A program made the position numbers and the translations under genes. 45,388 nucleotides of DNA, taken from Candidatus Methanoperedens sp. Lineage in GTDB: Archaea > Halobacteriota > Methanosarcinia > Methanosarcinales > Methanoperedenaceae. The stretch covers positions 1-45,388 of the forward strand of contig JAPZAP010000066.1 of assembly GCA_027460585.1 (NCBI GenBank), in the 5' to 3' direction. The notes below the pieces were generated by a model, which saw nothing but the letters and a program-made list of their open reading frames with translations, made no database searches and had not been told where the DNA came from. This document shows, in pieces, positions 28,980 through 39,261 of the stretch (position 1 is the stretch's first letter; each line of letters opens with the position of its first letter).

Positions 28980-29804
28980 TCACTTATAATTATCGAAAAA
29001 TCTTAATGTTACATCTCCCACGATACCGCATTCCTTTGCATATTTGAAATAGAGTTCAAGGCTGTCCACACTCTCTTCATCCAGATCATAATTCAAAGTA
29101 TGAAGGTATTCACGCATGAAATTGCAGTCTATGTTTTTTTGCTTTCCGATAGAACTTGCGATTTCGCCTATGTTGTTGTATGCGTAATCTTTGGATCGCA
29201 GCAGTGTTTTTATTACATATCTGACTTTATCAGGATGCATTTTCGCAAATTTTTCCCTGACGACCCATAGGGCATAAACCATTTTTTTCCCGGTAAGGTT
29301 TTTCCAGACGTTTCCCAGGTCTGCTACGATCTGATATTTCCCTATGGCATGGATGGCGCTATCCCCGATCAAAAGAGCGGCATCTCCCTGCTCCAGCATC
29401 CGGTCAATATCAGTTCCAGGACACTGCCTGATATTTACATTTATCCCTTTGATCCATAAAATTATCTTGATAAGTGTTGCAGAACTTGCTGTGGTCTCAG
29501 GAATGCATAATGTTTTTCCTTCAAAATCAGATATATCCAATTTCCCATTTGAACAGATCAACACGCTCTTTGTAAAATCGTTTGAAGTTATAGATAGTCC
29601 TGGCAGAATGAGAAGGTCTTTGCGTTTCCCATACATTATCGAAGAGATCGGGCTGATATCCAGTTCTTCATTGAAGAGCATGCGTGCCAGTTCAACCGGA
29701 TGGGCTTCTTTGATATCGATGTCATGCGACTCTACTTTTCCCCGTTCAAGGGCATAATACGGGAAATCACAGTTGGCAAAAGCGATCTTTCCAAGACGGA
29801 TCAT
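28980..29804 (-). CDS. mqnA: Chorismate dehydratase-like MqnA (menaquinone, futalosine pathway)
   Basis: MqnA dehydrates chorismate to 3-enolpyruvyl-benzoate, the first step of the futalosine route to menaquinone. The 274-residue protein has the periplasmic-binding-like fold of the MqnA/MqnD family, with the start MIRLGKIAFANCDFPYYALE and the motif LDISPISSIMYGKRKDLLILPGL. The phrase LIGDSAIHA fits the substrate loop. MqnA and MqnD are similar, so the exact step is less certain, but the N-terminal RLGKIAFAN favours MqnA. Other mqn genes are absent from this window. Menaquinone is unusual for methane-linked archaea; Candidatus Methanoperedens uses it. Confidence 0.82.
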   Translation of the reverse strand: MIRLGKIAFANCDFPYYALERGKVESHDIDIKEAHPVELARMLFNEELDISPISSIMYGKRKDLLILPGLSITSNDFTKSVLICSNGKLDISDFEGKTLCIPETTASSATLIKIILWIKGINVNIRQCPGTDIDRMLEQGDAALLIGDSAIHAIGKYQIVADLGNVWKNLTGKKMVYALWVVREKFAKMHPDKVRYVIKTLLRSKDYAYNNIGEIASSIGKQKNIDCNFMREYLHTLNYDLDEESVDSLELYFKYAKECGIVGDVTLRFFDNYK

Positions 29805-30396: not shown

Positions 30397-30801
30397 ATGA
30401 AAATTAAAAACAATAAATCTCTGGACCCCGATGTATCCAATGTTATTACAAAGATAAAAGATATCGGAGGTGACAGTATAAAATTTATTGTTTTGTATGG
30501 TTCAGCAGTAAAAGGGAAAAGTACAAATCTGTCCGATATTGACATTGCAGTTTTTTACAGCGGCGATAAAATAAAAAGATTTCAGTTCAGGATTAAAATA
30601 CTTGGTAGAATTGGCAATAAATTTGACATTCAAACCTATCAGGATTTGCCATTATATGTTCAGAAAGAAATATTATCAAGTGGTGAAGTCCTCTATTTCA
30701 GTGATTATACAGAGATTTTTAATACATTCATGAAAACCATCAGAGAATTTGAGGATTTTAAACCGCGCCTTGAGTTGTACTATTCAAGTATGGGGGTTTA
30801 A
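30397..30801 (+). CDS. mntA: MntA-type nucleotidyltransferase antitoxin
   Basis: The 134-residue protein has the MNT motif LYGSAVKGKSTNLSDIDIAVF (GS and D-x-D residues, about 33-52). In known MntA/HepT systems MntA adds AMP groups to a tyrosine of HepT and silences its RNase activity. The next gene (30804) is a matching HepT, starting 2 bases after this stop. A TATA-like TTAAATATT (30363-30371) lies about 30 bases before the ATG, so the transcript may be almost leaderless. Confidence 0.9.
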   Translation: MKIKNNKSLDPDVSNVITKIKDIGGDSIKFIVLYGSAVKGKSTNLSDIDIAVFYSGDKIKRFQFRIKILGRIGNKFDIQTYQDLPLYVQKEILSSGEVLYFSDYTEIFNTFMKTIREFEDFKPRLELYYSSMGV

Positions 30802-30803
30802 TT

Positions 30804-31235
30804 TTGGAAAAATCGGATCGTATGCGCATACTCTCGAAGCTTGATGAAATGATAAAGTATATTGAAGAACTGCAAAGTATGCTTCCTGATCAAGACGAAT
30901 ATGAGCACGATCTCATTAAAAGGAGAGCCTGCGAGAAAACAATTGAAGTGGCGATCGACTCCTTAATCGATGTTTCAGCAATGATAGTTTCAGCGCAACA
31001 ATTTGGTTTACCTGATAATGAAGAAAATATATTCGACATGCTTATTGAAAAAAAGGTATTGAGTAGTAAATTTGGGGAAAAACTAAAAGACATGAAGGGA
31101 TTCCGAAATATCTTAATTCACCGTTACGGAAATGTTGATGATGAAATTGTATATCATAATTTAAGCAGCCATATGAATGATTTTTATGAATTTGAAAATG
31201 ATGTTAAATTATATTTACATAAACATAAAGATTGA
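30804..31235 (+). CDS. hepT: HepT-type HEPN toxin (DUF86)
   Basis: The 143-residue helical protein carries the HEPN ribonuclease motif R-x4-H-x-Y (RNILIHRYG near residues 108-116). The Tyr is the residue that MntA modifies with AMP in studied systems. The helical N-terminal part includes CEKTIEVAIDSLIDVSAMIV. The likely start is the TTG at 30804, with GGGGG (30792-30796) ahead of it; ATG 30822 is an alternative that keeps the domain. It is co-transcribed with mntA. Confidence 0.9.
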   Translation: MEKSDRMRILSKLDEMIKYIEELQSMLPDQDEYEHDLIKRRACEKTIEVAIDSLIDVSAMIVSAQQFGLPDNEENIFDMLIEKKVLSSKFGEKLKDMKGFRNILIHRYGNVDDEIVYHNLSSHMNDFYEFENDVKLYLHKHKD

Positions 31236-31326: not shown

Positions 31327-31359
31327 ACTTGAAAGACAATCATTAGTATGGAGGCGTTA

Positions 31360-31755
31360 GTGACGATAGATTACACAAAAGAAACAAAGCTGAATGTGAA
31401 ATCCGCTGTCGAGAAACTGACAGAAGACCTCAAGGCTAACAAATGGGGTGTTTTAAGTGTCATTGATGTAAAGAAAATCCTTGCAGAAAAGCTAAAAATC
31501 GAATCGGACGACTATATAATTCTTGATGTCTGCAATCCGGGTCTTGCGCACCAGGGACTTTCCATAAATAAACAGGTTGGGCTGATACTTCCATGCAAGA
31601 TAATCGTTTATTCCGATAAAGGAAGAACAAAAATATCCCTCTATAAACCCACTGTTGCACTGAGCACGGCAAGTATACTTGCTGGTTATGATAAACTCAG
31701 AATGCTTGCAATTGAAGCAGAAGACGGTTTAAAGAAAGTAATTGATCTTCAATAG
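31360..31755 (+). CDS. DUF302 family protein
   Basis: This 131-residue protein fits DUF302, seen in many anaerobes and often near redox or heavy-metal genes; its role is unknown. Typical parts are VKSAVEKLTEDLKANKWGVLS, DVCNPGLAHQGLSI and VGLILPCKIIVY. I prefer the GTG at 31360 because GGAGG lies 6 to 10 bases ahead. The ATG at 31348 is in frame and would add four residues, but it would leave GGAGG inside the coding sequence. It is the first gene of the compact plus-strand run and is followed 8 bases later by a rubrerythrin. Confidence 0.88.
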   Translation: MTIDYTKETKLNVKSAVEKLTEDLKANKWGVLSVIDVKKILAEKLKIESDDYIILDVCNPGLAHQGLSINKQVGLILPCKIIVYSDKGRTKISLYKPTVALSTASILAGYDKLRMLAIEAEDGLKKVIDLQ

Positions 31756-31763
31756 GTGTTAAT

Positions 31764-32144
31764 TTGCAGACAATCGAAATAATGGAAAAAACATTTGATT
31801 CAGAGTCAAATGATATTGCCCTCTATCTTGCAATGTCAAAAAAGGCAGATGAAGAGGGACAACTTGAGATAGCAGCCTATCTATTTGATATCGCAATGGA
31901 TGAGGCTTCGCATGCCGTCCAGTTTGCATCTCTCCTGGGAAAGGTGAAGGACACAAAAACCAATCTTGTAAATATGCTTGCAGGCGAAATGCAGGCTGAA
32001 AAGGATAAAGCCCATGCTGCAAAAGTAGCTTTTTCCGAGGGGAATGATGATGCTTTCAAGTTTTTTGAAAAATCCTTGAAAGATGAAACAAAGCATAAAG
32101 AAGGAATTAAAAAAATCCTTTCAAAATTACAGGAAAAAGATTAA
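31764..32144 (+). CDS. Rubrerythrin-like diiron protein
   Basis: Rubrerythrins use a diiron centre to reduce peroxide in anaerobes. The 126-residue protein is a ferritin-like four-helix bundle with E-x2-H-type motifs (MDEASHAVQF and DETKHKEGI). It lacks the C-terminal rubredoxin domain, so it needs an outside electron donor; the rubredoxin-fused FTR at the end of the run is a possible one. The start is a TTG at 31764 with AGGTG ahead; ATG 31782 is possible. It follows DUF302 and precedes the AhpD-like gene. Confidence 0.88.
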   Translation: MQTIEIMEKTFDSESNDIALYLAMSKKADEEGQLEIAAYLFDIAMDEASHAVQFASLLGKVKDTKTNLVNMLAGEMQAEKDKAHAAKVAFSEGNDDAFKFFEKSLKDETKHKEGIKKILSKLQEKD

Positions 32145-32180
32145 ACCAACTTTAAACAAATATACTATCGGAGAATAAAT

Positions 32181-32588
32181 ATGGAACCAGAAAAGGTAAT
32201 AAACAGCATCGAAGGGAAAATGGGATTTACCCCGGAGATCATGAACATGATGAGTGAGATGAATCCGGAGATGTTCGAGCATTATAAAAAATGCGATGAC
32301 GGAATCCAGGAAGATGGAGCACTTCCGGCAAAAGTAAAGGTTCTGATGTCACTTGCAATAATGGCATCACAGCGCTGTGAAGTGTGTTGCGAATCCCAGA
32401 TGAGAAGTGCCTTAAACCACGGCGCTACAAAAGAAGAAATAATGGAAACAATGAATGTCATTTTCATTACTTCCGGCGCCCCGGGCGTAGCAGTATGCAG
32501 GAGAGCCCTGAAAATAATGGAAGGAACCGAAGAACATGGTGGTCATGGCAGCGGTCATGGCTGCATGGGCGGAAGAAGAAGACAATAA
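32181..32588 (+). CDS. Carboxymuconolactone decarboxylase/AhpD-like protein
   Basis: The helical 135-residue protein resembles the AhpD/CMD family, with a redox C-x2-C motif in SQRCEVCCESQMRSALNHGA. In AhpD this pair passes electrons to peroxiredoxin. The usual downstream His of C-x2-C-x3-H is not at the expected place, so the activity may differ. The C terminus is rich in Gly and His (GGHGSGHGCMGG), a possible metal-binding tail. It precedes the ferritin gene by 73 bases that contain the palindrome and a separate promoter. Confidence 0.85.
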   Translation: MEPEKVINSIEGKMGFTPEIMNMMSEMNPEMFEHYKKCDDGIQEDGALPAKVKVLMSLAIMASQRCEVCCESQMRSALNHGATKEEIMETMNVIFITSGAPGVAVCRRALKIMEGTEEHGGHGSGHGCMGGRRRQ

Positions 32589-32611
32589 ACCATATAGAAG
32601 ATAAATTTATA

Positions 32612-32631
32612 ATCATTGATTTATCAATGAT
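32612..32631. promoter_or_regulatory. Palindromic operator candidate before the ferritin-mcrC genes
   Basis: ATCATTGAT and ATCAATGAT form a perfect 9-base inverted repeat with a 2-base spacer. It begins directly after a TTTATA box (32605-32610) and ends near the start site expected about 25 bases after that box. In archaea this is where repressors block RNA polymerase. The sequence loosely recalls iron-type (Fur-like) boxes, but I cannot name the regulator. Confidence 0.6.
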
Positions 32632-32661
32632 AACCATAAAATAATAAAATTGGAGGATATT

Positions 32662-33081
32662 ATGAGCCAGAAAATAATAGATGCATTAAACAAGGACAGA
32701 GAAGCCGAATTGGCCGCGATCATACAATATATGAAACATCATTATGAGGGAGAGGGAATGGAAAGCCCGGCCATCCTTGAAATATTCAAATCTACAGCAA
32801 AGGATGAGATGGGACATGCAGAAAAGCTTGCAGAGCGCATTGTCTATCTTGGCGGGACTCCCATAAAGAAACCTGAGCCCATCATTGAAGGTGGAGACCT
32901 CAAGAAAATGATGCAGGATGACCTTGCAAAAGAGAATGGCGCGATCAGGCAATACAAAGAACATATTAAGCTTGCCATCGAGGAAAATGATCCAACGACC
33001 AGGCTCATGCTTGAGGAGATCCTCTCTGATGAAGAAGGTCACGCCGATATCTGGGAAACCATACTTTCAATAAAGAAATAA
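32662..33081 (+). CDS. Ferritin-like (bacterioferritin-type) protein
   Basis: The 139-residue protein is a four-helix ferritin-like protein, with glutamates in AELAAIIQYMKHHYEGEG and E-x2-H motifs in KDEMGHAEKLAE and SDEEGHADIWE that should bind two irons. It may store iron or remove peroxide. The ATG at 32662 has a strong GGAGG (32652-32656). An upstream in-frame TTG is less likely. The mcrC gene starts only 2 bases after its stop, so the two are co-transcribed from the promoter with the palindrome. Confidence 0.88.
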   Translation: MSQKIIDALNKDREAELAAIIQYMKHHYEGEGMESPAILEIFKSTAKDEMGHAEKLAERIVYLGGTPIKKPEPIIEGGDLKKMMQDDLAKENGAIRQYKEHIKLAIEENDPTTRLMLEEILSDEEGHADIWETILSIKK

Positions 33082-33083
33082 AC

Positions 33084-33767
33084 ATGTTCGGAAGAGAAAC
33101 GCAACTGGTGGACTGCAGGGAAACGATGGGAATGGGGCGGGGCGGAGGTCTTGCCCAGCGCGGAACCCTGTCAGAAGCAGCAAGACCTGATGTCGTGGCT
33201 ATTGCCATGACGCCAGGACGCAGACATATCACAAAACCTGTTTGTGAGATAACACAGGGTCTTCGCAGGGAAAGTATACAGGTAAGCGTACTTGTGCTTG
33301 AAGCCGGCGCAGGCATTCCTATGGACGATGTCGGAGCTTCCACAATTTCAAAAGGTTATGGAGCTAATTTTGGTTTGTCTGCAAAAGAGATAGAACAGAT
33401 AGCCCGGCACAAGATCGTACTATTAAATATGGGAAATGTCAATTCCCATATAATTTCAAAAACAAAGAAAATCTTGAAATATATAAATATCCCCGCGGTC
33501 ATTGCCTGTGAATATCCTATCGATTTTGAGGATTTCGCAAAAAACGGCATAAAGACAAAATTCGTCAAACCTAAAAAACCTGAAACAGAAGGTACAGTAG
33601 TCGCGATCGTAAGCGGCATAACAAGGGGCGAGACCTGCTCAAGGATCAAATTGAATGAACTGGCAAAGGCTATACGTCAGATCCTTGGTGAGAAAATAGA
33701 ATCGACCCATGCGGTCAGAAGCGACCTGTTGATAAGTGAAGGATTAATGGCAAGTGAAGGAGAGTGA
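33084..33767 (+). CDS. mcrC: Methyl-coenzyme M reductase operon protein C (McrC)
   Basis: McrC belongs to the set of proteins tied to methyl-coenzyme M reductase; in Methanothermobacter it was found in the fraction that activates MCR by reducing its nickel cofactor F430. The 227-residue protein has strong family marks: VDCRETMGMGRGGGLAQRGT, TPGRRHITKPVCEIT, ACEYPIDFEDFAKNGIKT and ITRGETCSRIKLNEL. Here it is not next to mcrBDGA but inside a redox gene run. It starts 2 bases after the ferritin stop and is followed after 7 bases by DUF2180. Its presence shows that the organism belongs to the MCR-using archaea. Confidence 0.95.
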   Translation: MFGRETQLVDCRETMGMGRGGGLAQRGTLSEAARPDVVAIAMTPGRRHITKPVCEITQGLRRESIQVSVLVLEAGAGIPMDDVGASTISKGYGANFGLSAKEIEQIARHKIVLLNMGNVNSHIISKTKKILKYINIPAVIACEYPIDFEDFAKNGIKTKFVKPKKPETEGTVVAIVSGITRGETCSRIKLNELAKAIRQILGEKIESTHAVRSDLLISEGLMASEGE

Positions 33768-33774
33768 AAGCACT

Positions 33775-33987
33775 ATGAAATGTTACATTTGCGCTAAAAT
33801 GGGAAAAGATACTGATGCAGTGGCAGTCTGTATCGTATGTGGAATGGGCGTTTGCATGGAACATGCAAAGTATGAGGAAACACCTGTCTGGAAAGGCGAC
33901 TATCCTGTAAGACTTGAAAAGGATATCGAGAACCTGAAAAGAATAATGTGCCCACCCTGTCATGAAGCTCTAAAGGAGAACTGGTGA
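33775..33987 (+). CDS. DUF2180 small zinc-ribbon-like protein, copy 1
   Basis: The 70-residue protein is rich in cysteine (MKCYICAKMGKD, then AVCIVCGMGVCMEHAKYEE, and a late CPPC) and has the pattern of DUF2180, a family I know from methane-linked archaea. It likely binds zinc or an Fe-S centre. I chose ATG 33775 because the family starts M-x-C-Y; a GTG at 33754 is in frame. It sits directly after mcrC and before a diverged second copy. Confidence 0.88.
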   Translation: MKCYICAKMGKDTDAVAVCIVCGMGVCMEHAKYEETPVWKGDYPVRLEKDIENLKRIMCPPCHEALKENW

Positions 33988-33992
33988 TCTTT

Positions 33993-34214
33993 ATGTTGAG
34001 ATGTTATGAATGTGCGACAAGCGATGCTAAGGAAGAAGCAGTTTCCATATGCATAATGTGCGGGAAAGGATTGTGTATGGAACACGCAAATAGGATTGAT
34101 CTTCCAATCTGGGAAGGAGGTTATCCTGCGCCTGTAAAAATGCTCAAGAAAGGCCTTCCAAGATTTGTATGCAGAGACTGCGGGAATATCCTGTTACCCG
34201 GTTCCTGCGAATAA
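33993..34214 (+). CDS. DUF2180 small zinc-ribbon-like protein, copy 2
   Basis: The 73-residue protein is a paralogue of the gene before it, with MLRCYECATSD, ICIMCGKGLCMEHANRID and a last pair CRDCG. The shared motif is C-x2-C then C-x2-C-x4-C-MEHA. ATG 33993 fits the family start; the GTG at 33984 overlaps the previous stop. The next gene, porGD, begins 6 bases after the stop. The tandem pair between mcrC and the oxidoreductase suggests a role in redox or cofactor transfer, but no function is known. Confidence 0.86.
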   Translation: MLRCYECATSDAKEEAVSICIMCGKGLCMEHANRIDLPIWEGGYPAPVKMLKKGLPRFVCRDCGNILLPGSCE

Positions 34215-34220
34215 AAAGAC

Positions 34221-35120
34221 ATGTTCGAAGTCAGGTTTCATGGAAGGGGCGGCCAGGGCGCGGTCATGGCTGCCCAGACACTTGCAGAGGCTGCGGTAAA
34301 TGAAGGAAATTATGCCGTAGCCTTTCCTTTTTTTGGAGCCGAACGACGCGGAGCGCCGGTTCTTGCCTTCACGCGTATCGATGAAAAAAAAATATACAGC
34401 AAAACACAAGTTTATGCACCAGATTGTGTGGTAGTGCTTGACGATTCTCTTCTTGATACCATAGATGTTGTTTCAGGTTTAAAACCAAATGGCACGGTAA
34501 TTATTAACTCAAAAGAAAAACCTGATGACATTGACCTTGGGGTAAGTGTTCGAACAGCCAGTGTAAATGCCACATCCATTGCACTTGAGATACTGAAAGC
34601 ACCGATCACAAATACCGCGATCCTGGGAGCTTTTGCAAAAGCCACAGGAATTATCAGGATCGAATCCCTGGAAGCATCCATAAAGCAAAAATTCGGCGAG
34701 AAGCTGGGCGAGAAAGTAGGTGAGAGAAATGCCTTTGCTGCAAGGACTGCTTATGAAAAAACGATCATTGGAACCAGCAGGAGCGTTAAAAAACTTGAGG
34801 CAAAGAAACAGTGGCTGCCAAAATACCAGGATTACCCGATCGGTGCCGCCCTTATAGAAGGTAAAACCGAAGCAGGTCTTATCGGTCCGGGGAGTTTTAT
34901 CGAGAATAAGGTTTCCGGCTGGGCGACATACCGTCCTTTGAGAGATAAAGAAAAATGCACAATGTGTCTCCTGTGCTGGTTTTATTGCCCAGAAGGAACA
35001 ATTATCAGGATTTCAGACCGCGGCGACCTGATGACAAATTATGATTATTGCAAGGGGTGCGGCGTTTGCGCCAATGAATGCCCTGTTGATGCGATAAAAA
35101 TGGTGAGGGCACGGGCATGA
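34221..35120 (+). CDS. porG: Pyruvate:ferredoxin oxidoreductase gamma-delta fusion
   Basis: The 299-residue protein joins a gamma domain (about 1-180, with [20 protein letters not shown] and the GAERRGAPV motif) to a delta ferredoxin domain (about 215-299). The latter has two 4Fe-4S motifs, [13 protein letters not shown] and [15 protein letters not shown]. The oxidoreductase makes acetyl-CoA, CO2 and reduced ferredoxin from pyruvate, or runs in reverse. In many archaea gamma and delta are separate genes; here they are fused. The stop overlaps the porA start by four bases. Confidence 0.94.
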
Positions 35121-36289
35121 AGAAAGTAATAACCGGGGATCATGCAGTAGCTATAGGAGCAAAACTGTGCCGCGTGGATGTAGTTCCAGCATATCCAATA
35201 ACGCCGCAGACACTTATTATCGAACATATCGCGGATTTTGTTAATGACGGGGAACTTGATACAAAGTTCCTTACCATGGAATCGGAACACAGCGTTATGA
35301 GCGCAGCAGCAGCAGCATCTGCCGCGGGCGCAAGGGTTTTTACAGCAACCTCCTCACAGGGACTTGCATTCATGCATGAGATGCTTTATGCAACAGCGCC
35401 TCTTCGTCTTCCGGTTGTAATGGCAAATGCCAGCCGCACGCTTGGCGGTCCTCCGGGTATCTGGTGTGAGTACAATGATTCCATGGGCGCGCGAGATTCC
35501 GGATGGCTGCAACTTTATGTGGAAGATAATCAGGAAGCTCTGGACATGATCATCCAGTCTTTCAGGATAGCTGAGGATAAACGCGTACTTTTGCCAGTTA
35601 TGCCCTGCCTTGATGGTTTTGTTCTTACGCATACGGTTGAACCGGTAGAAATCCCGACGCAGGAGGAAGTTGATTCGTTCCTTGGACCTTATGAACCCGA
35701 TATTATCCTTGACCCGGCAAGACCTGCCATGATCGGGACTTTCATGCCTGCAGAATATATTATGGAGTTACGAAGGCAGACCGTGGCAGCGTTTGACTCT
35801 GCAAAGGATGTTATCAGGGAAGTAAATAGTGAATTCTCGAAAAAATTCGGCCGGGATTATGGGGGTCTTGTCGATACTTACAGGATGGATGACGCTAAAG
35901 TCGCCCTGATAACAATGGGAACTGTTACAAGTACATCCCGCGAAGTCGTCGATGACCTGAGACAGAAGGGTGAAAAAGTAGGCATTATAAAGCTTCGGTT
36001 TTTCAGGCCGTTCCCTTCGGAAGATTTGAGAAAATTAGTCTCAAACCTGGATGCGCTTGGTGTTTTTGACCGCTCAATATCATATCATGGCGGAGGCCCT
36101 GTTTACAATGAGGTTCGCTCCGCGCTTTTTGGCATGAAAATGCCGGTAATAAATCATTTTGCAGGACTTGGAGGGCGGGATGTGACAGAAGATCAGATAT
36201 TCAAAATGTTTGAGCTGACATCCAGGGCGGCTAAAGGGGAAAAAGTGAAAGAGGTAAACTGGCACAATACAAGGGGTGAAACTGTATGA
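35117..36289 (+). CDS. porA: Pyruvate:ferredoxin oxidoreductase alpha subunit
   Basis: PorA supplies the binding half for the substrate and part of the thiamine diphosphate site. The 390-residue protein has [37 protein letters not shown] and [20 protein letters not shown], which fit the pyruvate-type enzyme rather than the 2-oxoglutarate type. Overlaps (ATGA) at both ends link it to porGD and porB. The substrate assignment is from motifs, not proof. Confidence 0.95.
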
Positions 36290-37248
36290 TAACTATAAAA
36301 GAACTTTCTGATGATAACCTTTTCACGGCAGGTCATACAGCCTGTCCTGGCTGCGGAGTTGCTATGTCAATAAGGAATGCGATACGCGTTCTTGGAAAAG
36401 ATACTGCTGTATATGTGCCCGCAAGCTGCGCCGTGGTATTCGGGACTACTTTCCCGTATGGCGCCTGGAAAGTCCCGTTTTTCCACACTGCTTTTGAAAA
36501 TACCGGCGCCTGTCTCACAGGCATGCAGGCGGCTTTTGAAAAGAAGGGGAAAAAGGTCACAGTCGTTGGATTCGCGGGAGATGGCGGAACTTATGACATT
36601 GGTTTGCAGAGCATGTCGGGCGCGGCAGAGCGCAACGAAGATATCATTTATATTTGTCTTGACAATGAAGCGTATATGAACACAGGCATTCAGCGAAGCG
36701 GCGGAACGCCTTTCGGGGCATGGACGACTACTACACCTGTGGGTTCAAATATCCAGGGAAACCAGCGATTCAAGAAAAACCTGGGGGATATTGTGGTGGC
36801 TCATGAAATTCCCTATTATGCGACATTGTCAATCGGGCATCCACTTGATTTCATAAGAAAAGTTGAGAAGGCAAAGAACATGAAAGGATTCCGTTTCCTG
36901 CACATGTTCACGCCATGCATTCCTGGCTGGAAAATGGACCCGGCCAAAACCGTTGAGGTCACAAAAAGAGCCGTTGAAAGCGGTATGTGGACACTTTACG
37001 AAGTCGAGAACGGCGAGAAGAAGGTCACATATAAACCCGGTAAAATGAAATCCGTTAAGGATTACCTCAATATGCAGGGACGGTTCAGGCACATGAGCGA
37101 TGAGGACATAAATAAACTCCAGATGTGGGTATGTAGGAAATGGAACCTCCATTATCATGAAAAAGGGGCGCCTGATATTTGTGAAGTGGCGCCACCTGTT
37201 GAACATCATGCCATCACTGAAGAACACAGGGAGATGCACGGACCATGA
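36286..37248 (+). CDS. porB: Pyruvate:ferredoxin oxidoreductase beta subunit
   Basis: PorB binds thiamine diphosphate and a 4Fe-4S cluster. The 320-residue protein has HTACPGCGVAMSIRN (cluster Cys pair) and the thiamine motif GFAGDGGTYDIGLQSMSG to YICLDNEAYMNTG (GDG ... N). Further Cys residues in PASCAVV and TPCIPGW also belong to the family. The last 25 residues are rich in His and Glu. It overlaps the next gene, a glutaredoxin, by four bases, tying the oxidoreductase to thiol redox chemistry. Confidence 0.95.
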   Translation: MITIKELSDDNLFTAGHTACPGCGVAMSIRNAIRVLGKDTAVYVPASCAVVFGTTFPYGAWKVPFFHTAFENTGACLTGMQAAFEKKGKKVTVVGFAGDGGTYDIGLQSMSGAAERNEDIIYICLDNEAYMNTGIQRSGGTPFGAWTTTTPVGSNIQGNQRFKKNLGDIVVAHEIPYYATLSIGHPLDFIRKVEKAKNMKGFRFLHMFTPCIPGWKMDPAKTVEVTKRAVESGMWTLYEVENGEKKVTYKPGKMKSVKDYLNMQGRFRHMSDEDINKLQMWVCRKWNLHYHEKGAPDICEVAPPVEHHAITEEHREMHGP

Positions 37249-37502
37249 AGAATAAGATAAAACCCATGCTTTACACGCTTAGCACATGCGTTCATTGCAG
37301 CGCAACGAAGCGATTTTTGAAAGAGAATGATATCGAATACGATTATGTGGATGTTGACAAATTGTATGGCGGTGAAAAAGACGAAGTGCTTTCGGAAATG
37401 ATGAAAGTAAGTGGAGACATGAGATTTCCAACGATCATAATTGGGAAAAAAGTAATAGTTGGCTTCTATCAGGATAAATTGAAAGAGGCGCTTGGATTAT
37501 GA
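37245..37502 (+). CDS. Glutaredoxin-like thiol protein
   Basis: The 85-residue protein has a thioredoxin fold with the active-site motif Cys15-Val-His-Cys18 (LSTCVHCSATKRFL) and the cis-proline segment RFPTIIIGKKVIVG. It should carry electrons as a dithiol. Many archaea lack glutathione, so it likely takes electrons from a reductase such as the ferredoxin:thioredoxin reductase encoded next. Both ends overlap the neighbours by four bases (ATGA). A NrdH-type role is possible. Confidence 0.92.
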   Translation: MKNKIKPMLYTLSTCVHCSATKRFLKENDIEYDYVDVDKLYGGEKDEVLSEMMKVSGDMRFPTIIIGKKVIVGFYQDKLKEALGL

Positions 37503-37996
37503 GAACAATGGAAGAGATGTTCGATCCGATGAAAAAAATAGCCCGTGAAGAGGGTTACAAATTCAATCCGAATAAGCTTGAACTCAATGATATTCTTCAG
37601 GGCATGTGGGACAACGAGCAACGATATGGTTATCCATCATGCCCGTGCCGCCTCGCAAGCGGGACACTTGCAAATGATATGGATATAATATGCCCCTGCA
37701 ACTACCGGGATGCAGATATTGCAGATTACGGAAGCTGCCTCTGCACGCTTTATGTTAATGATGAATGGATCGCCGGAAGGATGCCGCATGATCCCGTCCC
37801 GGAAAGGCGCCCGAAGGAATATGCTATTAAAGGTTATCCTGGAATTAATGAACAAAAAGGCGCTGGAGGTGGAGAAATGGTAGAAGTTTACAGGTGCCAG
37901 GTATGCGGGTATCTATGCGCAAGAGAAGAGGCACCGGATCTATGTCCTATTTGCAGGGCAAAGAAGGAGAGATTTGAGAAATTCAGAATGAAGTAG
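37499..37996 (+). CDS. Ferredoxin:thioredoxin reductase catalytic subunit fused to rubredoxin
   Basis: The 165-residue protein joins an FTR catalytic domain (about 1-110) to a rubredoxin-like domain (about 128-165). The FTR part has the Cys pattern C48-P-C50, C65-P-C67 and C80-L-C82 that binds a 4Fe-4S cluster next to the active disulfide. The rubredoxin part has Cys133, Cys136, Cys149 and Cys152. The enzyme should pass electrons from ferredoxin to a thiol partner, presumably the glutaredoxin one gene before, and the rubredoxin may pass them to rubrerythrin. ATGA overlap with the glutaredoxin supports one complex. It is the last gene of the run. Confidence 0.93.
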   Translation: MRTMEEMFDPMKKIAREEGYKFNPNKLELNDILQGMWDNEQRYGYPSCPCRLASGTLANDMDIICPCNYRDADIADYGSCLCTLYVNDEWIAGRMPHDPVPERRPKEYAIKGYPGINEQKGAGGGEMVEVYRCQVCGYLCAREEAPDLCPICRAKKERFEKFRMK

Positions 37997-38187: not shown

Positions 38188-39261
38188 ATGAATATTTTAT
38201 CTAAATATAAATTGGGCGATCTTGAACTTTCAAACCGCATGGTTATGGCGCCTATGACCCGCTGTCGCGCACTTCCTGGCAATGTCCCAAACCCATTATC
38301 TGCTACCTATTATGCTCAAAGAGCCTCGGCAGGTTTGATCATCACTGAAGGCTCACAGGTGAGCGAGCATGGAGTCGGTTATGTCAATACACCGGGAATA
38401 CACTCACCTCTTCAGGTCGCAGGGTGGAAAAAAGTGACCGAAGCAGTTCATAAGGCAGGAGGAAAAATTTTCCTTCAACTCTGGCATGTAGGCCGGGTGT
38501 CGCATCCTGATTTCTTAGGGGGTGAACTGCCCGTTGCGCCTTCTGCGCTTCCTGTCGATGGCGAAATTCATACACCAAAAGGCAAAAAGAAATTTGTGGT
38601 TCCAAGAGCTCTCGAACTGGACGAGATACCGGGCATAATTGAGCAATTCCGAAAAGGTGCCGAGAATGCAAAGGATGCGGGATTTGATGGCGTTGAGATC
38701 CACGGTGCCAATGGATATCTTCTTGACCAGTTCCTGAGAGACGGCTCAAACCGCCGGACTGATAAATATGGGGGATGTCTTGAGAATCGCTTACGTCTTC
38801 CCCTTGAAGTTACTGAAGCTGTCGTCGGCGTATGGGGTGATGATAGAGTCGGTTACAGGATATCGCCTCACTTTTCAAACTATTCGATGTCTGATTCGAA
38901 TCCGCGCGAAATCTATTCATATCTTGCAGAGGAGATGAATAATATCGGGCTGGGATATATTCATATGGTGGAGCCTGTTGGGGGCAGGATGGGAGCAACA
39001 CCGCATGCTTCGAAACTGGCTCCGATCATTCTGGACATATTCGAAGGGACGCTCATTTTAAATGGAGGCTATGACTTGCGAAGTGGAAATGAAGCTATCG
39101 AAAAAGCTGAAGCTGACCTGATATCATTCGGGGTTTTGTTCCTGGCTAATCCTGACCTGCCGGAACGCTTCAGGAAAAATGCACCACTCAATCAAGCGGA
39201 TGTTGCCACATTTTACATGGGCGAGGAAAAGGGTTACACCGATTACCCGAAACTAGGATAA
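38188..39261 (+). CDS. Old-yellow-enzyme family NADH:flavin oxidoreductase
   Basis: The 357-residue FMN protein belongs to the NemA/OYE group that reduces C=C bonds in enones, nitro compounds and similar electrophiles. It has the starting phrase LSNRMVMAPMTRCRA, the substrate His/Asn motif EIHGANGYLLDQFLRDGSN and the end LANPDLPERFRKNAPL. The close match to bacterial NemA-type proteins suggests transfer from bacteria. It stands alone, with the shared palindrome and a GC-rich hairpin ahead. Detoxification of electrophiles would fit the neighbouring redox genes. Confidence 0.93.
   Translation: MNILSKYKLGDLELSNRMVMAPMTRCRALPGNVPNPLSATYYAQRASAGLIITEGSQVSEHGVGYVNTPGIHSPLQVAGWKKVTEAVHKAGGKIFLQLWHVGRVSHPDFLGGELPVAPSALPVDGEIHTPKGKKKFVVPRALELDEIPGIIEQFRKGAENAKDAGFDGVEIHGANGYLLDQFLRDGSNRRTDKYGGCLENRLRLPLEVTEAVVGVWGDDRVGYRISPHFSNYSMSDSNPREIYSYLAEEMNNIGLGYIHMVEPVGGRMGATPHASKLAPIILDIFEGTLILNGGYDLRSGNEAIEKAEADLISFGVLFLANPDLPERFRKNAPLNQADVATFYMGEEKGYTDYPKLG

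Follow-up and report, generated by a model that had tools for sequence, protein, structure and literature searches.

A Methanoperedenaceae-specific run of redox genes around mcrC, with a second Por paralog and a mini-bacterioferritin

In a 45,388-nucleotide stretch of DNA from Candidatus Methanoperedens sp. (contig JAPZAP010000066.1 of assembly GCA_027460585.1; hereafter the window) the gene for McrC, the electron-relay subunit of the activation complex of methyl-coenzyme M reductase (MCR), lies in a run of 12 genes, all on the + strand (31348-37996). Its neighbours encode peroxide and iron proteins, two DUF2180 proteins (a and b), a 2-oxoacid:ferredoxin oxidoreductase (Por), a glutaredoxin (Grx) and a ferredoxin:disulfide reductase (FDR). 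The window makes up contig 66 of a draft genome (2.47 Mb, 84% complete). The run is a family-wide unit that is specific to Methanoperedenaceae. Judged from its gene content, we tentatively read it as an operon that may join the McrC relay to a redox-repair kit, for redox repair and the re-activation of MCR, and the context suggests where the activation machine may get its electrons. The association of mcrC with redox genes is strong; the electron path is hypothetical.

New in the present analysis are the mini-bacterioferritin (mBfr) gene 2 bp before mcrC, a palindrome before it that occurs once in each genome having it, the position of the Por as a second paralog, the retention of all four known McrC cluster ligands, and one genome in which an operon of MCR activation factors (Mmp) lies tail-to-tail with the run. 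No description of this mcrC context or operon was found in the open-licence literature (titles, starts of abstracts and some passages).

Conservation of the gene run

Sixty genomes were scanned, the source genome included, and McrC was over its cut-off in 51. Regions were fetched around 51 McrC matches outside the source genome: 30 in Methanoperedenaceae (27 from the same genus, 2 from genus g2 and 1 from genus g3) and 21 in other families of the order. A second set consisted of 80 named loci, kept out of 388 relatives found by scanning named genomes with the McrC alignment. The family loci of both sets overlap largely and are not independent counts; the 25 nearest McrC loci of the second set show 80-94% identity.

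In all 30 fetched family loci, covering three genera, the parts of the run occur in the same order and on the same strand, which argues for the proposed operon. Both DUF2180 genes are present in 29 loci each, PorGD and PorA in 28, PorB in 27, and Grx, FDR, ferritin and AhpD in 26. Some of the absences are due to contig ends (on the 3' side of L056, L060, L062 and L074; loci are numbered L and genomes G), others are losses. Spacings are nearly the same across loci (medians of +2 bp between ferritin and mcrC, +6 bp between DUF2180b and PorGD and -4 bp at each junction from PorGD to FDR), with FDR farther from Grx in L043, L064 and L072 (up to 918 bp). In the 80-locus set, parts of the run were found in 25/25 family loci. 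An earlier note on this DNA had pointed to ANME-2d and to other Methanosarcinales as places to look for the same order. The recurrence in the family rules out a peculiarity of the source genome; outside the family, other Methanosarcinales included, no such arrangement turned up (0/21 fetched and 0/55 named loci), and near McrC in those 21 fetched loci there was no match to DUF2180, Grx or FDR.

As a control, the 12 window genes flanking the run were searched in the same 30 loci. Three were found above 60 bits, each in a single locus, although several loci are short contigs, which limits this control. A nucleotidyltransferase is weakly matched (31-34%) in L037, L070 and L073, and L042 and L050 have one upstream gene of 385 residues in common. 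On these counts the run is more than a chance arrangement, and it is kept while its surroundings mostly turn over.

The coordinates are given in Table 1. The gene content named by the earlier note (peroxide and iron proteins, McrC, two DUF2180 proteins, PorGD-A-B, Grx and an FTR-rubredoxin fusion) agrees with the profile matches, and the four ATGA overlaps that it saw joining the last five genes are real. Its 13 same-strand genes are indeed all on the + strand, but number 12, and the first one begins at 31348 rather than 31360. Its description of the genes as almost without spacing fits from the ferritin gene onward; before it the gaps are 8, 36 and 73 bp (the last measured to the ATG at 32662), and the 73-bp gap holds the palindrome.

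Table 1. Genes and putative control elements of the run (window positions)
Feature	Position	Strand	Evidence and remarks
DUF302 protein	31348..31755	+	PF03625 68.5 bits; loosely attached front gene; 13/30 family loci
Rubrerythrin/ferritin-like diiron protein, no rubredoxin domain	31764..32144	+	PF02915 55 bits; 19/30 family loci
AhpD-like carboxymuconolactone decarboxylase family protein with CxxC	32181..32588	+	PF02627 57 bits; 26/30 family loci
TATA-like A/T-rich stretch, putative promoter	32603..32612	+	sequence; similar boxes often precede the palindrome in other loci
Palindrome TCATTGA-N4-TCAATGA, putative operator	32613..32630	.	31 bp before ATG 32662
Mini-bacterioferritin (mBfr)	32662..33081	+	PDB 9qq4 254 bits; called ORF 32650-33081, ATG 32662 likelier start
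McrC, electron-relay subunit of MCR activation complex	33084..33767	+	TIGR03264 292.7 bits, cut-off 213.5
DUF2180 protein a	33775..33987	+	PF09947 112 bits, cut-off 22.2; ATG 33775 likelier than GTG 33754
DUF2180 protein b	33984..34214	+	PF09947 93 bits, cut-off 22.2
PorGD, fused gamma-delta, 2-oxoacid:ferredoxin oxidoreductase (second Por)	34221..35120	+	PRK08534 234.7 bits, cut-off 225
PorA	35117..36289	+	PorA_Arch 505.5 bits, cut-off 550
PorB	36286..37248	+	PRK11865 392.4 bits, cut-off 405
Glutaredoxin (Grx) with CxxC	37245..37502	+	PF00462 54 bits; PDB 3nzn 64 bits; Grx part of 7pwe
FTR-beta/rubredoxin fusion, ferredoxin:disulfide reductase type (FDR)	37499..37996	+	PF02943, PF21349; PDB 4tpu 152 bits

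McrC and the activation factors of MCR

In this family mcrC has left the mcr operon. It is absent from all 20 fetched family mcrA loci, in line with its place in an operon of another kind; 11 of these show mcrB-mcrD-mcrG-mcrA (one with an mcrA truncated where the contig stops) and the rest are fragmentary or stop at a contig end. An M. nitroreducens contig that bears both genes has mcrC about 206 kb away from mcrA. The family thus has mcrBDGA operons with mcrC elsewhere, whereas in the mcrBDCGA operon of methanogens it sits between mcrD and mcrG (PMC9081873). A location outside the mcr operon had been published before for M. nitroreducens (ANME2D_00875) and for ANME-1 (PMC9081873); the passages of that paper on the displaced gene do not describe its neighbours. 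For the 55 non-family loci of the 80-locus set, 19 have other mcr genes around mcrC and 36, within L115-L162, show no match to the other mcr queries (many of them Methanothrix or Methanosaeta).

Two mcr observations stand apart from the run itself. One contig of G001 (L038, 1-201) begins with an mcrA 3' end, which lies some 1.6 kb ahead of AhpD in its run, and the same mcrA tail opens a second contig of this genome (L095), which suggests duplicated mcr genes. In G007 three contigs have mcrA matches (L179-L181), one of them ordered mcrA-mcrG.

The displaced McrC looks functional from its residues. In the activation complex (McrC, Mmp7, Mmp17, Mmp3, A2 and DUF2098; PDB 8s7v/8s7x/9h1l, PMC12176620) three 8Fe clusters have been proposed, for two of which McrC supplies ligands, and in M. 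maripaludis the McrC ligands are H49, H118, C55 and C12 (passages of PMC12176620). The window protein belongs to the same McrC family and, aligned to the M. maripaludis chain, has the same four ligands at H48, H122, C54 and C11 (clusters FeSI and FeSII). These are kept in 29, 30, 29 and 29 of the 30 family loci, the exceptions being one locus that is not covered there. Residue 115 (33426-33428) is Asn in the window and in 9/30 family loci and His in 21, and is not a cluster ligand: a McrC with a lost ligand at this position was ruled out, as M. maripaludis H118 aligns with H122.

Mmp7, Mmp17, Mmp3 and A2 co-purify with McrC (PMC12176620). In vitro activation of MCR made use of Ti(III) citrate, and passages of the same paper name ferredoxin only as a possible physiological donor; the operon names concrete candidates to test for the reduction of F430. 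McrC is encoded beside an enzyme that reduces ferredoxin, a ferredoxin:disulfide reductase and a ferritin that has been crystallised, in hosts that are methane oxidisers living near nitrate and oxygen.

Profile searches found no Mmp7, Mmp17, Mmp3 or A2 gene among the genes of the window run. Unlike the gene sets of the activation complex, mcrC travels here with mBfr, DUF2180, Por, Grx and FDR, and the Mmp and A2 genes lie outside. Two observations nevertheless speak for a link to MCR activation. In one of the 30 loci (G009) an Mmp3-6-5-15-17-7 operon, with all members over their cut-offs, lies tail-to-tail with FDR at a distance of 18 bp. In family f10, which we take as ANME-1-like, 13 of the 14 genomes picked have McrC over the cut-off, and A2 (AtwA) adjoins mcrC in 11/11 with the upstream side on the contig; overall, the f10 loci (L311-L321 and L323-L334) have mcrC beside one or two A2 ATPase genes. 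Both A2 genes of L323, the only two of this family that were run, are over the TIGR03269 cut-off (NCBIfam). The gene for DUF2098, the McrC-binding protein of the complex, lies just before mcrB in M. nitroreducens (L171, 2356-2691; PF09871 64 bits). As a separate observation, mcrC is present twice in G065 (family f12), and the second copy shares a run with genes that resemble those of A2, Mmp7 and mcrD (L337, 2120-5628).

Por, glutaredoxin, FDR and DUF2180 as partners

The Por of the operon is a second, deep paralog. Operon-type PorA (>=68% identity) and another PorA of 42-49% identity are found together in 28/34 family genomes. Only the other Por is present in G015, G024, G027 and G029, only the operon type in the source draft and neither in G028 (the source genome, G000, and G027-G029 being the less complete genomes in this count). 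With the other Por in 32/34 genomes, the idea that the operon Por is the only one of the family is ruled out. The other copy has split porG, porD, porA and porB genes (four fetched loci), against the fused PorGD of the operon. The trees comprised 16 operon copies (one from the window, the others from 15 loci) and 4 other copies, with PDB 9bt4 left out. The operon copies fall together in a single clade (100/100 in the PorA tree, 100/99 in the PorB tree), and the other copies cluster with the Por of other Methanosarcinales. The nearest kin of the operon clade differs, since its neighbours in the PorA tree are not those in the PorB tree, and the branches are long. Outside the source genome, PorGD reaches at most 48% identity in matches over most of its length (294 genomes of the phylum, a draw from which the family was otherwise absent).

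Compared with the archaeal PorGDAB of PDB 9bt4, which we take to be that of M. acetivorans, the operon enzyme has the same subunits and active-site residues but a fused GD and a clade of its own; the 9bt4-like Por is the other copy. PorA T29, E55 and R107, residues that mark pyruvate enzymes, are present in 28/28 loci, and PorB N127 and N132 in 26/26 covered loci; C48 departs in one of 27 PorB loci. The roles of these active-site motifs are in part our assumption. Given that PorA (505.5 of 550) and PorB (392.4 of 405) fall just below the cut-offs of the pyruvate-synthase equivalogs, and that the clade is a deep one apart from the other Por, it might be argued that the enzyme uses another 2-oxoacid, so that the module would draw its electrons or carbon from a different source. 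We regard this as improbable in view of the three PorA residues and of the PorB motif DNEAYMNTG, which match pyruvate enzymes. Oxalate oxidoreductase is spoken against by the active-site motif, which is YPIT in the operon Por and YPIR in the oxalate enzyme.

The FDR has all 11 cysteines in 26/26 loci, a full-length match to PDB 4tpu, the FTR-beta cysteines and a C-terminal rubredoxin domain. PDB 4tpu is presumably the FDR of Methanosarcina acetivorans and 5cax its methanoredoxin. The run FDR has the same FTR-beta plus rubredoxin architecture as the former, and the run Grx is of the same group as the latter; in the run both share one operon with mcrC. Their catalytic cysteines are conserved, which speaks for the proposed operon, as are C66 and C69 of the AhpD-like protein (26/26 family loci). 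In PDB 7pwe a Grx-like part is joined to FTR in one chain. The coenzyme M-using methanoredoxin and the FDR of M. acetivorans are reviewed in PMC7278568.

Less can be said about DUF2180, on which the open-licence literature searched yielded no paper. Protein a has eight Cys/His (alignment of 12 sequences) and is probably zinc-binding. A fold search with a model (pLDDT 86) returned nothing at E of 0.001 or less; the weak matches included FYVE and Rim zinc fingers. Its company in other families fits the redox reading: a DUF2180 pair lies beside FTR in 4/7 genomes of family f2 (ANME-2), and beside an AhpD-like gene in 6/6 fetched loci of family f5, which we take for Methanosarcinaceae. One f5 locus that was examined further (L247) continues with a multihaem cytochrome, flavoproteins, rubrerythrins and FTR. 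DUF2180-AhpD is thus an older oxidative-defence grouping, to which Methanoperedenaceae added mcrC, Por and Grx-FDR (and, within the genus, mBfr).

Mini-bacterioferritin, palindrome and proposed function

Judged from its sequence, the ferritin before mcrC is the crystallised mini-bacterioferritin Mper-mBfr (PDB 9qq4). The BLZ2 protein at the same place, 2 bp before mcrC, agrees with 9qq4 at every one of 139 residues, and the window protein matches it at 254 bits. The BLZ2 protein was purified from the organism, is called naturally abundant and was demonstrated to be a 12-mer with coproheme (PMC13168243). Its authors leave its role open in the abstract of that paper, the main text of which has no occurrence of McrC or operon. 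The protein hereby gains a genomic address and likely partners, and DUF2180 gains a setting. Near orthologs (>=70%) are found full-length in 28 genomes and as a fragment in G011, all of the same genus; a 44-52% similar ferritin sits elsewhere in 21 genomes of the genus.

The palindrome between AhpD and mBfr occurs in exact form in 20/34 family genomes, once per genome, and the reversed control pattern in none, which again favours a regulated unit. Of these 20 sites, 19 immediately precede the mBfr gene (two of them on contigs without mcrC). Versions with 1, 2 and 3 mismatches precede mBfr in G007, G023 and G017, and genus g2 has neither mBfr nor palindrome. The twentieth exact site (L354, G017:C20:13819-13836) lies away from the run. 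We read the palindrome as a putative operator that would mark mBfr-to-FDR as a unit in most of the genus. Because this promoter-like element precedes the ferritin in 19/34 family genomes, the three genes ahead of it could form a unit of their own. The single run of the earlier note is thus supported by the family-wide order, whereas DUF302, the rubrerythrin-like gene and AhpD may be a separate or read-through front.

Taken together, the operon probably starts at the palindrome in most genus members and would comprise mBfr, mcrC, DUF2180a, DUF2180b, PorGD, PorA, PorB, Grx and FDR, preceded by a more loosely attached front for peroxide defence (DUF302, the rubrerythrin-like protein and AhpD). 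It might answer oxidative or iron upset. In such a state mBfr, AhpD and the rubrerythrin-like protein could remove peroxide, oxygen and free iron, and the extra Por could use pyruvate to reduce ferredoxin at times when methane oxidation is unable to do so. FDR would use this ferredoxin to reduce glutaredoxin and the disulfides of proteins and coenzyme M. McrC, in concert with Mmp7, Mmp17 and the A2 ATPase (whose genes lie elsewhere), would carry low-potential electrons to F430, making oxidised MCR active again. Here we infer the single transcript, the stress trigger, the substrate and direction of Por and the transfer of electrons from Por or FDR to McrC. A stricter version, in which the operon is the physiological electron route for MCR activation (dedicated Por to ferredoxin, to the FDR/rubredoxin domain, to the surface cluster of the Mmp7-McrC relay, in a palindrome-controlled unit with mBfr that is switched on after oxidative MCR inactivation), seems to us rather doubtful.

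Several observations weigh against our tentative reading of redox repair and MCR re-activation. The Mmp neighbourhood is known from one genome only, and Methanothrix-type genomes have mcrC alone, without redox kit (e.g. L129); in three such loci, read by eye, the neighbours have no evident link. Two genomes of M. nitroreducens (G015 and G024) lack the operon Por, with DUF2180b followed directly by Grx, and the PorA and PorB scores fall short as described (the gamma part is over the PRK08534 cut-off). One of the two BLZ2 porA genes is called an anabolic entry point, not assigned to the operon or the other copy, and both react to CO (PMC13079737, in part). The two g2 loci lack mBfr and have AhpD adjoining mcrC. 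Finally, the exact palindrome is missing in 14/34 family genomes, and there is no good match (>=5 mismatches) before mBfr in the nearest relative G002, nor in G005, G009, G013 and G014.

The natural deletion in M. nitroreducens shows that McrC-DUF2180-Grx-FDR stands without Por, which is hence not essential to the link. The joint module of the earlier note is thus partly supported: it agrees with a family-wide unit and kept McrC ligands, but the first three genes are perhaps separate, Por is a second paralog that these two genomes lack, and the path from pyruvate over ferredoxin to McrC is hypothetical.

Part of the same evidence would suit an operon for iron and cluster supply, in which mBfr stores iron and releases it to the nitrogenase-like 8Fe clusters of the McrC/Mmp7 relay and to the clusters of Por and FDR, and the palindrome is read by an iron-responsive regulator, with no electrons passing from Por to McrC. 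The place of mBfr directly before mcrC (median 2 bp), its natural abundance (PMC13168243) and the three 8Fe clusters proposed for the complex, two of them on McrC (PMC12176620), agree with this. We nonetheless consider it unlikely, given that Grx, FDR and AhpD are left unexplained and that the core persists where mBfr (genus g2) or Por (M. nitroreducens) is absent. Somewhat unlikely is mere co-regulation: mcrC would have moved into a convenient, strongly expressed operon whose members share no common task, the Por turning acetyl-CoA into pyruvate for carbon assimilation and Grx-FDR repairing thiols in general. Anabolism usually draws on acetyl-CoA through a Por (PMC13079737 and PMC9012536), Grx-FDR and DUF2180-AhpD exist as groups of their own (two f2 and six f5 loci, respectively), and the Methanothrix-type mcrC stands alone. 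On the other side, nearly all family genomes already have the other Por elsewhere, order and spacings are kept while flanking genes turn over, and the displaced mcrC of f10 adjoins its known partner A2.

The surroundings of the run differ from this picture of conservation. Just upstream, a nucleotidyltransferase (PF18765) and a HepT-like protein (PF01934) are encoded at 30397-31235, a pair of the minimal-nucleotidyltransferase/HEPN toxin-antitoxin type that is not conserved there. A menaquinone biosynthesis family protein (PF02621 200 bits) lies at 28980-29804 on the - strand, and the old-yellow-enzyme family gene at 38188 is outside the conserved run. In G001, a nitrogenase component 1 type oxidoreductase is encoded a few kb downstream of the run (L038, 11122-12087, - strand, PF00148 274 bits).

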